64,000 nt of DNA, taken from Ensifer sesbaniae (GTDB taxonomy: Bacteria > Pseudomonadota > Alphaproteobacteria > Rhizobiales > Rhizobiaceae). Numbering within the stretch: the first letter of the stretch is position 1; the number at the start of each line of letters is the position of its first letter. Below the pieces are notes generated by a model that had not been told where the DNA came from, searched no databases, and saw only the letters and a list, made by a program, of their open reading frames with translations. This document shows positions 9,633 through 14,310 of the stretch, one piece after another. A program made the translations under genes and the position numbers. The DNA is taken from positions 2,921,137 to 2,985,136 of the forward strand of contig NZ_JABEKU010000001.1 of NCBI RefSeq assembly GCF_013283665.1, given 5' to 3'.

Positions 9633-11297
<1,665 letters not shown>

Positions 11298-13652
11298 ATG
11301 TTTCTCGACGACGAAATCGCCTCATTGAACACCGGACGGAATGAAGCGCGCTGGGGCATGTATCTGGCGATCGCAGCGCTCGCCGCCTGCATCCTGATGC
11401 TCATCGGCCTGATGACCCAGGCTGCCGCGCAAACGCCAGACGCCAAACCCCAGCAGATGGCAGGCTATGTTCACCCCAACGATTTGGGCACCGGCGCCCT
11501 GCTCTTCCCGTCGAAGGAACCCGGTTATTTCGTCGAGGCGCCGCGGTTGGCGACGGACGTGACCATCGACGTCAACGGCCCGATCATGCGCACCCGCGTG
11601 ACCCAACGCTTCGAGAACCCCAGCAAGGGCTGGGTCGAAGGCACCTATGTCTTCCCGCTTCCCGAGGACTCGGCCGTCGATACGCTGAAGATGCAGATCG
11701 GCGACCGCTTCATCGAGGGCCAGATAAAGCCGCGTGAGGCCGCCAAGGAAATCTACGAGCAGGCCAAGGCCGAGGGCAAGAAGGCGGCACTACTGGAACA
11801 ACAGCGCCCGAACATCTTCACCAACCAGGTCGCTAATATCGGCCCCGGTGAAACGGTCATCGTGCAGATCGAGTATCAGAGCGCGGTCCGCCAATCGAAC
11901 GGGCTTTATTCCCTCCGCTTCCCGATGGTCGTGGCACCGCGCTACAACCCGCAGCCGATCGTTCAGACCGTCGATCTCGACAGCCGTACCGGTTATGCCG
12001 TCAGCGACCCGGTCCCCGATCGCGAAAAGATCGAGGCCCCGGTTCTCGACCCCAAGGAAAACGCCAAGGTCAACCCCGTCACGCTGACAGTCAATCTCAA
12101 GGCGGGCTTTCCGCTCGGCGAGGTGAAGTCCGCCTACCACGAGACCGATATCGCCAACCTCGACGATCTCAGCCGCCGCGTGACGTTGAAGGGCGACAGT
12201 GTTCCAGCCGACCGCGACTTCGAGCTCACCTGGAAGGCGATCGAGGGCAAGAGCCCCTATGCCGGCCTCTTCCGCGAGACGGTGGGTGACAAGACCTATC
12301 TGCTCTCCTTCGTGACGCCGCCGGCCGCCGCAGCCGACGCCGGCGCCAAGCCGGTCAAGCGCGAGATCGTTTTCGTCATCGACAACTCCGGCTCTATGGC
12401 CGGCCCCTCGATGGAGCAGGCCAAGGAGAGCCTGGCACTGGCAATCTCCAGGCTGAAGCCCGAGGACCGCTTCAACGTCATTCGCTTCGACGACACGATG
12501 ACCGTGCATTTCCCTGACCTCGTCGAGGCGACGCCGGACAAGCGCGAGGATGCGATCGCCTATGTCCGAGGCCTGACCGCCGACGGAGGGACGGAAATGC
12601 TGCCGGCACTCGAAGCGGCGCTGCGCAGCCAGGGTCCGGTCCAGGCCGGCGCCCTTCGCCAGGTCGTCTTCCTGACCGACGGCGCGATCGGCAACGAGAC
12701 GCAGCTCTTCGACGAGATCCAGAAGAACCGCGGCGACGCCCGTGTCTTTACCGTCGGCATCGGCTCGGCCCCGAACAGCCATTTCATGACCAAGGCCGCC
12801 GAATACGGCCGCGGCAGCTTCACGCTGATCGGCTCGGAGAGCCAGGTGGCCGAGCGCATGGCCGAGCTCTTCACCAAGCTCGAAAACCCTGCCATGACCG
12901 ACATTTCCGCCAGCTTCGAGGGCGCATCGGCAAGCGACATCACGCCGAACCCGATGCCCGATCTCTACCGCGGCGAGCCGGTGGTGCTGACGGCCGAACT
13001 CGACGGCGCCGCGCCTAAGGGCAAGCTGCAGATCCTCGGCAAGGCCGGCTACCAGCCCTGGCGGGTCGAGATGGACATCGCCAAGGCCTCGACCGGTCAG
13101 GGCATCGCCAAGCTCTGGGCGCGTCGCAAGATCGATGATCTCGAGGCAAGCGCCGCTTCGATTGCCGGCCCCGCCACGCTCGACAGGCGGATCGAGACCG
13201 TAGCACTCGCCCACCACCTCGTTTCGCGCGTCACCAGCCTCGTCGCGGTCGATGCGACGCCGTCGCGCCCGACCGGCGAGCCGCAGGCCGAAACGAAGCT
13301 GCCTCTCAACCTTCCGGCCGGCTGGGACTTCGGCAAGGTCTTTGGTGAGGAGCCTGCTGGGAGTACCCCCGGCAAGATCGACGAACGCGATGCCGCGGCC
13401 GAAAGCCGGACCAAGGTTGCCACGGCGACGGCAGACCGCATGCTGGCGGCACCGACGGCGCGTGCAGCGGGCCTGATCGCCGAGGCCAACAATCAGGTAA
13501 ACCTGCCGCAGACGGCAACGGAAGCGGACAAGCAGATCCTGATCGGCCTGATGCTGTTGGCTTTCGCCCTCCTCGCCGGCACGGCGTTCATCTTCTGGCG
13601 CGCGCCGATTGCCGCCGTCGTGCTTGCGGGAGTGCGCCGTCGTGGCCGCTGA
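11298..13652 (+). CDS. VIT and VWA domain surface protein, substrate of class GN sortase
   Basis: A 784-aa exported protein. In order: N-terminal hydrophobic signal/anchor (about residues 21–44), inter-alpha-trypsin VIT domain (about 70–205), von Willebrand A domain with MIDAS motif DNSGS beginning at Asp362, a long C-terminal region, sorting signal LPQTATEA from residue 736, a transmembrane segment (about 748–770) and a basic tail RRRGR. This tripartite C-terminus is the hallmark of the proteobacterial sortase-target family (TIGR03788-like). The sortase gene overlaps its stop codon. GGGGG 8 nt before the ATG supports the start. It probably binds a ligand or partner through the metal site at the cell envelope; the partner is unknown. 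Confidence 0.88.
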   Translation: MFLDDEIASLNTGRNEARWGMYLAIAALAACILMLIGLMTQAAAQTPDAKPQQMAGYVHPNDLGTGALLFPSKEPGYFVEAPRLATDVTIDVNGPIMRTRVTQRFENPSKGWVEGTYVFPLPEDSAVDTLKMQIGDRFIEGQIKPREAAKEIYEQAKAEGKKAALLEQQRPNIFTNQVANIGPGETVIVQIEYQSAVRQSNGLYSLRFPMVVAPRYNPQPIVQTVDLDSRTGYAVSDPVPDREKIEAPVLDPKENAKVNPVTLTVNLKAGFPLGEVKSAYHETDIANLDDLSRRVTLKGDSVPADRDFELTWKAIEGKSPYAGLFRETVGDKTYLLSFVTPPAAAADAGAKPVKREIVFVIDNSGSMAGPSMEQAKESLALAISRLKPEDRFNVIRFDDTMTVHFPDLVEATPDKREDAIAYVRGLTADGGTEMLPALEAALRSQGPVQAGALRQVVFLTDGAIGNETQLFDEIQKNRGDARVFTVGIGSAPNSHFMTKAAEYGRGSFTLIGSESQVAERMAELFTKLENPAMTDISASFEGASASDITPNPMPDLYRGEPVVLTAELDGAAPKGKLQILGKAGYQPWRVEMDIAKASTGQGIAKLWARRKIDDLEASAASIAGPATLDRRIETVALAHHLVSRVTSLVAVDATPSRPTGEPQAETKLPLNLPAGWDFGKVFGEEPAGSTPGKIDERDAAAESRTKVATATADRMLAAPTARAAGLIAEANNQVNLPQTATEADKQILIGLMLLAFALLAGTAFIFWRAPIAAVVLAGVRRRGR

Positions 13653-14310
13653 CAACCAAAAGCCCGAACCTCGCCCGGGCTTTCTCGCCCGCCTCTCGGC
13701 GGTCGAAACGATCGTGCTCGCGGTGATCGCCCTCATTGCCCTTGCCGGCGTGATGCTGATCGGCAAGGGCCTCTACATGAAGGCCAAGGCCGAAGTCTCC
13801 CAGGTGCTTCTTAAGCGCTCCTTCGAGGCGCAACTGCACGGCAACCCGGATGGCAAGCCCTGGCCTTGGGCCGACTTCCAGACGACGGCTGAAATCACCG
13901 CGCCACGACTCAACCGCTCGGCGATCGTGCTCGAAGGCGCCAGCGGCGAGGCGCTCGCCTTCGGCCCCGCCTGGCTGACGACGACGCCACTGCCCGGCGA
14001 CGAAGGCACCTCCGTCATCGCCGCCCACCGCGACACGCATTTCCGATGGCTGAAGGACGTCAACCCCGGCGATCTCCTGGTGCTGACACGCAAGGATGGC
14101 CGGCGCTTCCTGTTCCGGGCCGGCGAGAGCCGCGTCGCCCGCTGGGACGAAAGCGGCATCAACGCATCGGCCAGCGGCCACCATCTGGCGCTCGCCACCT
14201 GCTGGCCCTTCGATGCGGTCGAACAGGGGCCGATGCGCTACATCGTCAATGCCGCCCTCATCGGCGAACAACGGCCTGTGCCGCTGACGACGGGCTCGAT
14301 CTCGAAATAA
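13642..14310 (+). CDS. Class GN sortase
   Basis: A cysteine transpeptidase acting outside the inner membrane. The full triad is visible: His129 in AAHRDTHF, Cys187 in LATCWPF and Arg199 in GPMRYIV. An N-terminal transmembrane helix (VETIVLAVIALIALAGVMLI) anchors it. I chose GTG 13642, preceded by GGGAG at 9 nt and overlapping the substrate stop by 11 nt; 222 aa. The longer frame begins with TTG inside the substrate's tail. Tight coupling to a single LPxTx substrate is how this Gram-negative class is normally found. Confidence 0.9.
   Translation: MAADNQKPEPRPGFLARLSAVETIVLAVIALIALAGVMLIGKGLYMKAKAEVSQVLLKRSFEAQLHGNPDGKPWPWADFQTTAEITAPRLNRSAIVLEGASGEALAFGPAWLTTTPLPGDEGTSVIAAHRDTHFRWLKDVNPGDLLVLTRKDGRRFLFRAGESRVARWDESGINASASGHHLALATCWPFDAVEQGPMRYIVNAALIGEQRPVPLTTGSISK

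Follow-up and report, generated by a model that had tools for sequence, protein, structure and literature searches.

The closest described relatives of the gene pair considered here are the marine proteobacterial dedicated sortase (PDSORT) systems, which comprise a sortase (TIGR03784), its target protein (TIGR03788), the kinase PdsS (TIGR03785), the regulator PdsR (TIGR03787) and PdsO (TIGR03789). The pair lies on the forward strand at positions 11298–14310 of a 64,000-nucleotide stretch of the Ensifer sesbaniae genome (contig NZ_JABEKU010000001.1, positions 2,921,137 to 2,985,136), called the window below, and encodes a class GN sortase preceded by its VIT/VWA-domain substrate. It shares with PDSORT both protein families and the adjacency of the two genes, but it is accompanied by no PdsS, PdsR or PdsO above the model cut-offs. 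Both family assignments are unremarkable and covered by existing public models; what differs is the two-gene, apparently ChvI-wired form, as opposed to the five-gene PDSORT. Taken as a whole, we rate at about an even chance the account that this is a two-gene, one-substrate envelope-stress sortase module, which ChvI would drive and whose substrate would be tied to peptidoglycan. The genes, the single sorting signal, the conserved upstream box, the kinship of the regulators and the protein folds are direct observations of this analysis.

Several other systems invite comparison. Class D sortases include Bacillus anthracis SrtC (PMC3208642), acting with BasI/BasH, and Clostridium perfringens SrtD5. 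SrtC cleaves LPNTA at the T–A bond and fixes the protein to the meso-diaminopimelate (m-Dpm) of peptidoglycan (PMC3297441). The window sortase falls below the class D family cut-offs and, unlike SrtC with its two substrates, has one, in a diderm host with a thin wall and an outer membrane. In diderm proteobacteria, proteins tied to the stem peptide are represented by Lpp, OutB and alphaproteobacterial beta-barrels (PMC12274547, PMC11527210); these are also protein–stem peptide links, but L,D-transpeptidases make them, not a sortase. Finally, the ExoS-ChvI regulon of Sinorhizobium meliloti includes SMc01580, a relative of our substrate gene; in S. meliloti its upstream DNA is bound by ChvI and its expression is induced by acid, and the corresponding motif occurs upstream of the pair in the window. 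The difference is that the accessible section of PMC6637203 in which SMc01580 is named a sortase target draws no link to ChvI.

The sortase and its substrate

The features of the pair are as follows.

11298..13652, + strand: sortase substrate, 784 residues, with VIT and VWA domains (TIGR03788; Pfam VIT and VWA; AlphaFold2 predicted local distance difference test score, pLDDT, 75.7)
11298..11432, + strand: predicted N-terminal export signal, residues 1–45 (charged stretch, hydrophobic helix, AAA followed by Gln)
11553..11876, + strand: VIT domain, residues 86–193 (PF08487, E 1.3e-36)
12363..12818, + strand: VWA domain, residues 356–507 (PF13768), with the metal ion-dependent adhesion site (MIDAS) D362-S364-S366, T432 and D461
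13284..13502, + strand: low-confidence stretch, residues 663–735 (pLDDT below 50 for residues 663–740)
13503..13649, + strand: sorting signal, residues 736–784 (LPQTATEA, residues 736–743, at 13503–13526; hydrophobic helix; RRRGR tail)
13642..14310, + strand: class GN sortase, 222 residues, GTG start, N-terminal membrane helix (TIGR03784; pLDDT 91.9)
14026..14028, 14200..14202 and 14236..14238, + strand: sortase triad His129, Cys187 and Arg199, assigned by conservation

The initial annotation of this DNA had described a complete Gram-negative sortase system with one dedicated substrate, a VIT/VWA protein ending in LPQTATEA, a membrane helix and an RRRGR tail, and it had named a frameshift or the lack of family matches as grounds for refutation. 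Reading frames, profile hidden Markov models and sequence bear this description out. The substrate starts with ATG at 11298, both frames are open, and no frameshift was found in either gene. With the GTG start, the proposed overlap of 11 nucleotides (13642–13652) and the residue numbering are correct; an alternative TTG start at 13609 would give a sortase of 233 residues. The substrate scores 862.1 bits against TIGR03788 ("marine proteobacterial sortase target protein", NCBIfam; cut-off 551.65), with Pfam VIT and VWA both above their cut-offs, and the sortase scores 197.2 bits against TIGR03784 ("class GN sortase", NCBIfam; cut-off 158.25), with Pfam Sortase above its cut-off as well. Conservation agrees with the full triad: H129 and C187 never vary among 43 sortases taken from the genus and from the class more widely, and R199 is kept in 42, the exception (L105) ending at its contig end. 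The metal-binding motif that had been noted in the substrate is likewise intact, its MIDAS residues being invariant across 47 aligned substrates.

The dedication of the sortase to one substrate also stands, since the genome holds a single Pfam Sortase match and a single sorting-signal match at E ≤ 0.1. The signal search, run on 35 genomes, recovered the known substrate in 34 of them and missed it in G120. Extra substrates elsewhere were considered and rejected: the E. sesbaniae genome has its single match, and elsewhere all but two of the additional matches have E ≥ 0.013 and start past the LPxT part of the model. The two exceptions, weak second matches at G226:C4:17511-17606 (E 0.006) and G296:C119:21235-21321 (E 0.002), are possible second substrates in those genomes. 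Three genomes (G217, G356 and G706) have two class GN sortase matches each; one of the two is a contig-end fragment in G217, and one reaches only 84 bits in G706.

As for the sorting signal itself, LPQTATEA is identical in all 16 loci of the genus. We also scanned named genomes for sortase loci and took the best 80 of 589 (the named loci below), which makes this sample a biased one. Among its 79 substrates, 76 carry LPxTAT, the other three having LPQTST, LPQSAT and LPQGAT. Distant substrates of the class sample shift to LPxGAT or LPxGST, and five of them (L112 and L115–L118) have no clean LPxT motif; the signal alignment (A5), with 38 rows chosen from 122 substrate-bearing loci, omits these five, as well as L093, L097, L102 and others. 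The general LPXTG_anchor model gives 13.4 bits on our substrate, slightly under its cut-off of 15.9, and an LPxTATN signal model also matches 6 of the 47 aligned substrates. The best models for the sortase after class GN are of class D (79 bits against a cut-off of 140, and 76.2 against 165), and one of these two is described as "LPxTATN-specific".

Predicted structures complete the picture. The sortase model has a helix at residues 20–65, and sortases top both of its fold-match lists. The substrate model has a helix at residues 16–43, and cleavage of the export signal would be expected at AAA/Gln. Residues 663–735 may serve as a flexible linker that joins the sorting signal to the folded portion. 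A whole-fold test of the VIT–VWA portion assigns to the modelled substrate the fold of inter-alpha-inhibitor heavy chains (ITIH), and the VWA domain of the LapA adhesin also appears among its structural matches. In animals, such heavy chains are covalently transferred onto polysaccharide; they are not known to carry a sorting signal, and the chemistry of their attachment differs. ITIH1 (PDB 6FPY/6FPZ) is 17% identical to our substrate.

A conserved ChvI-type box upstream of the pair

The features upstream of the substrate gene are the following.

11183..11196, + strand: ChvI-type box GCC-N8-GCC, 115 bp before the substrate ATG, predicted from a consensus match
11200..11206, + strand: ACAACTG following the box (ACAA[AC]TG in 42 of 46 distinct loci)

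For ChvI, a master regulator of acid-stress responses and symbiosis, an S. meliloti consensus of N-GCC-N8-GCC is given second-hand in the discussion of PMC9731502. The upstream DNA of the window reads TGCCATAATTTAGCC and holds the predicted GCC-N8-GCC at 11183–11196. Within the genus, the exact box is present in 15 of 16 loci, at −115 or −113. Our wider survey covered 96 loci (the window, 15 of the genus and the 80 named loci), in 50 of which the substrate N-terminus was recognisable; after four duplicates (L119, L120, L121 and L131) were dropped, 46 distinct loci remained. At −125 to −100, 32 of these have the exact box, 10 have it with one mismatch and four with two mismatches, and ACAA[AC]TG is present in all 42 loci with an exact or one-mismatch box. 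By chance, the exact box would be met in 2.9% of flanking stretches (841/29,225) or 2.6% of neighbouring upstream DNA (112/4,324), although the box counts are non-independent trials because the loci are related. At the matching distance, the exact box occurs in 21 of the 36 named loci in which the pair follows an aminotransferase gene (see below) versus 5 of the 43 without this linkage, L190 having no substrate. Such a contrast indicates that the box is confined to one lineage, which includes E. sesbaniae; the case for this genome is unaffected.

Elsewhere the picture is less uniform. No common box was found in Bradyrhizobium, where just 5 of the 19 loci could be anchored, and a rougher scan gave a recurring GCC-N8-GCC further upstream in some Bradyrhizobium loci. 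A second conserved block, ATTTATTCARAARAAWCAGCG (window 11141–11161), is found in all 16 genus loci and is perhaps a further regulator site. The stretch from box to gene at 11200–11244 is long and near-unchanged in the same 16 loci; this leader showed no unusual RNA structure (z-score 0.33), and no Rfam match was found in the window. Terminators predicted in the window scan were at chance level.

In S. meliloti, the substrate corresponds to SMc01580, which shares 80% identity with the Ensifer adhaerens OV14 sortase target (PMC6637203), and the E. adhaerens loci are 85–92% identical to that of the window. In earlier work recounted in PMC3687685, ChvI bound three of the 19 DNAs assayed, one of them from upstream of SMc01580. 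Upon an acid shift, induction of SMc01580 climbs to 18 minutes and then holds (PMC2651895); the gene is up at pH 6, more weakly without JspA or LppA (PMC10659215). It is also listed as raised (1.25) in a phosphatidylcholine-less mutant and appears among the induced genes in a Clr study. SMc01581 is presumably the S. meliloti sortase, judging by its number; PMC12486126 calls it a known direct regulator target, which NCR247, a plant peptide, induces. In the accessible text of PMC2651895, the Clr study and the phosphatidylcholine-less mutant study, SMc01580 is still "hypothetical"; only PMC6637203, among the papers found, names it a sortase target, and our literature search found no paper whose accessible text connects the ChvI target with the sortase family.

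From these sequence comparisons, we infer that ChvI would regulate the pair in E. sesbaniae as in S. meliloti. This control step is the best supported part of our account, and the ChvI promoter link gives the pair a physiological setting.

ChvI and the regulators of marine sortase systems

Dedicated signalling genes were searched for in 35 alphaproteobacterial genomes, that of E. sesbaniae included, and none had PdsS (TIGR03785) above cut-off; the OmpA-like PdsO (TIGR03789) was above cut-off in 0 of these 35 genomes versus 6 of 7 outside the class. In the E. sesbaniae genome, the best match to PdsR (TIGR03787) reaches 224.4 bits against a cut-off of 335.7, with the next protein at 136, and this best match is ChvI. 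A sample of 398 genomes separates the two forms: a dedicated kinase (E ≤ 1e-60) accompanies the sortase in 18 of 18 genomes outside Alphaproteobacteria (above cut-off in 12, below it at 430–519 bits in 6) and in 0 of 19 alphaproteobacterial sortase genomes. Nine genomes of this sample have the kinase and no sortase. The closest relatives of PdsR and PdsS in the alphaproteobacterial sortase genomes form one adjacent regulator–kinase pair in 22 of 23 cases, no such pair being found in G140 at the thresholds used. In E. sesbaniae, it is flanked by pckA and by hprK, EIIA-man and S-adenosylhomocysteine hydrolase genes, and the best model for its kinase is ChvG (496 bits, below the Caulobacter model cut-off of 740). 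Based on this neighbourhood and kinase match, the pair is ChvI/ChvG.

The best NCBIfam model for ChvI is that of the marine sortase regulator (224.9 bits), CreB being second (205.5). In a tree of 40 regulators, PdsR and ChvI fall on one side of a branch with support of 100/99.6, and of 100/99.8 when E. coli CreB, BaeR, CpxR and ArcA are added. The other regulators of this tree are next-best TIGR03787 matches, a biased sample, and its 14 ChvI rows besides that of the window genome are labelled by best match, not by neighbourhood. An arrangement with E. coli CreB as the sister of PdsR has a log-likelihood lower by 13.2 (p-AU 0.07), being disfavoured, not rejected. The alignment of PdsS with ChvG covers the kinase half only (profile 348–695). 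Overall, control of the rhizobial form appears to lie with ChvGI, a global pair related to PdsRS.

PDSORT loci vary in their make-up. In L240, L241 and L245, the sortase, target, PdsO, regulator and kinase occur together (the regulator of L245 by position only); L242 and L243 have PdsO, regulator and kinase, but the search matched no sortase within 17 kb of them, and L244 has regulator and kinase without PdsO or sortase. The hosts of these six loci are presumably marine gammaproteobacteria. The genome containing L242 (G829) has a sortase elsewhere, at C1:3445242, and none was found in that containing L243 (G855). The signalling part of PDSORT may serve more than the sortase.

Proposed mechanism and alternatives

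The cleavage, acceptor and function of the pair are put forward here as inference. Upon acid or envelope stress, ChvG (ExoS) and ChvI would switch on the operon via the box at 11183. The substrate would be exported, and its C-terminal helix would then retain it in the inner membrane; Cys187 of the sortase would cut LPQT|A and pass the new C-terminal Thr to an amine, likeliest the meso-diaminopimelate side chain of lipid II or peptidoglycan. The thin wall would thus hold a VIT/VWA protein resembling a heavy chain on a flexible linker, its metal site being free for a partner. That the acceptor in a Gram-negative envelope is a real question, as the initial annotation had remarked, is upheld by our analysis. 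We favour peptidoglycan because the signal is of the LPxTA type, the nearest models are of class D, and SrtC joins its protein to m-Dpm; rhizobial peptidoglycan probably offers the same amine, judging from Agrobacterium (PMC11527210).

A number of observations weigh against this account. The class D models miss their cut-offs, which makes the acceptor argument an analogy, and the fold comparison of the sortase leaves classes A, C, D, E and F tied; moreover, our literature search found, in the text accessible, no biochemistry on any class GN sortase. On the side of control, 14 of the 46 distinct loci are without an exact box, the unlinked named loci with the box at that distance are only 5 of 43, and the promoter scan found no sigma-70-like promoter. 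Three loci (L178, L192 and L196), though titled Rhizobium, belong to another lineage. Orthology with the S. meliloti gene rests on the 80% identity in the table of PMC6637203, and the same table has SMc01580 down five days after inoculation, which weighs against simple induction in plants; the E. adhaerens gene is up there.

Other explanations differ mainly in the fate of the cleaved substrate. It is doubtful, but conceivable, that the substrate is joined to a non-peptidoglycan acceptor, such as a surface or periplasmic polysaccharide, lipopolysaccharide or a lipid amine; the protein with its heavy-chain fold may then be a decoration on an envelope glycan whose synthesis ChvI controls. A shared fold proves no function, though, and the LPxTA signal indicates class D and diaminopimelate. 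We find it unlikely that the sortase acts as a protease, with water taking the acyl group after the LPQT|A cut and a soluble periplasmic or secreted substrate being released on stress. Sortases can indeed hydrolyse when a nucleophile is absent, and the literature accessible to our search offers no acceptor for class GN, but the full His-Cys-Arg set is kept (43, 43 and 42 of 43), which would be beyond the needs of proteolysis.

An outer-surface adhesin, in line with the adhesive role that the initial annotation had suggested, seems less probable still: the intact VWA metal site and the LapA VWA domain among the structural matches would suit such a role, but the C-terminal helix and the sortase place the substrate first at the inner membrane, nothing in our data puts it outside the outer membrane, and no export partner for that membrane was suggested among the compared neighbours, which were named by sight, some being unidentified. 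That the pair is an inactive relic retained by chance is hardly credible; our literature search found no phenotype in the accessible text, but the catalytic residues and promoter are conserved, all 16 genus genomes have the pair, and the divergence of the two proteins is coordinated.

Keeping the preferred peptidoglycan-anchoring module in mind, the simplest account is that a sortase module lies under one stress-sensing regulator lineage and that its output is a covalently fixed VIT/VWA protein. We would tentatively extend it, as a possibility short of an even chance, to Gram-negative sortase modules in general: they might long have been an output of a single two-component lineage that responds to envelope stress. 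Marine-type bacteria would keep a private version of it, PdsRS, in many cases next to the sortase, and rhizobia would use the global ChvGI, through which acid, stress on the wall or peptides from the host would lead to covalent attachment of a heavy-chain-like VIT/VWA protein to the envelope. If true, bacteria would have their own counterpart of heavy-chain transfer, and diderm walls a new kind of reinforcement during symbiosis. The role of sortases in two-membrane bacteria is a neglected question, and the link to SMc01580/SMc01581 brings it into S. meliloti, making it testable in a model symbiont that already offers regulator mutants, reporter fusions and, with pH 6, a condition that induces expression (PMC10659215). 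The link would also give meaning to a well-studied ChvI target still called "hypothetical".

Distribution and genomic context

Next to the pair, but outside the system, lies one conserved neighbour.

9633..10988, − strand: divergent aminotransferase gene, the conserved next gene upstream among the neighbours compared

We take this gene to be aatA. It precedes the pair in all 15 other genus loci and in 36 of the 80 named ones, that is, in 47 distinct loci, four contigs being shared. These 36 (L119–L153 and L157) are titled Ensifer, Pararhizobium, Rhizobium or Rhizobiales, and in the linked loci the same dehydrogenase mostly follows the pair. The initial annotation had suggested that the pair may be a variable insertion and had proposed a comparison of the interval across genomes. 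This comparison speaks against it: the sortase is found in 16 of 16 genus genomes in constant synteny, which rules out a variable insertion in the genus and makes the pair a fixed chromosomal resident there. Outside the genus it is patchy, with 32 of 247 genomes (17 of 109 genera) matching the sortase in the family sample, 31 of them above cut-off, and 30 of 289 in the class sample, 24 of them above cut-off, where the target model is above cut-off in 27 of 289.

The two genes stay together over this range. In 79 of the 80 named loci, the substrate gene is the immediate upstream neighbour of the sortase gene, on the same strand; the remaining locus, L190, is cut off at its contig end. Substrate and sortase distances correlate with r = 0.94 over 105 pairs, a value reached in 0 of 2000 permutations; relatedness was not removed from this comparison.

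The other 44 named loci are without the aminotransferase setting, except L198, from a Maricaulis assembly, where a 62% identical aminotransferase lies upstream of the pair; this linkage is perhaps old. The loci L178, L192 and L196, titled Rhizobium tropici or R. lusitanum, contain a more distant pair without the setting, and in R. tropici CIAT 899 a sortase of this kind is encoded on a replicon of 2.08 Mb. These represent a second, replicon-borne sortase lineage in the same family. A plasmid search returned 35 records, all below 60% identity: 13 on replicons of Rhizobium, Phyllobacterium, Novosphingobium and Methylobacterium and 22 on plasmids of Bacillus, Priestia and Planococcus. Finally, substrate C-termini from L159 (titled Bacillus subtilis SK6B4) and L184 (Frankia sp. 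RB7) closely resemble those of Pseudochrobactrum and Bradyrhizobium, and these two assemblies are probably contaminated or mislabelled.

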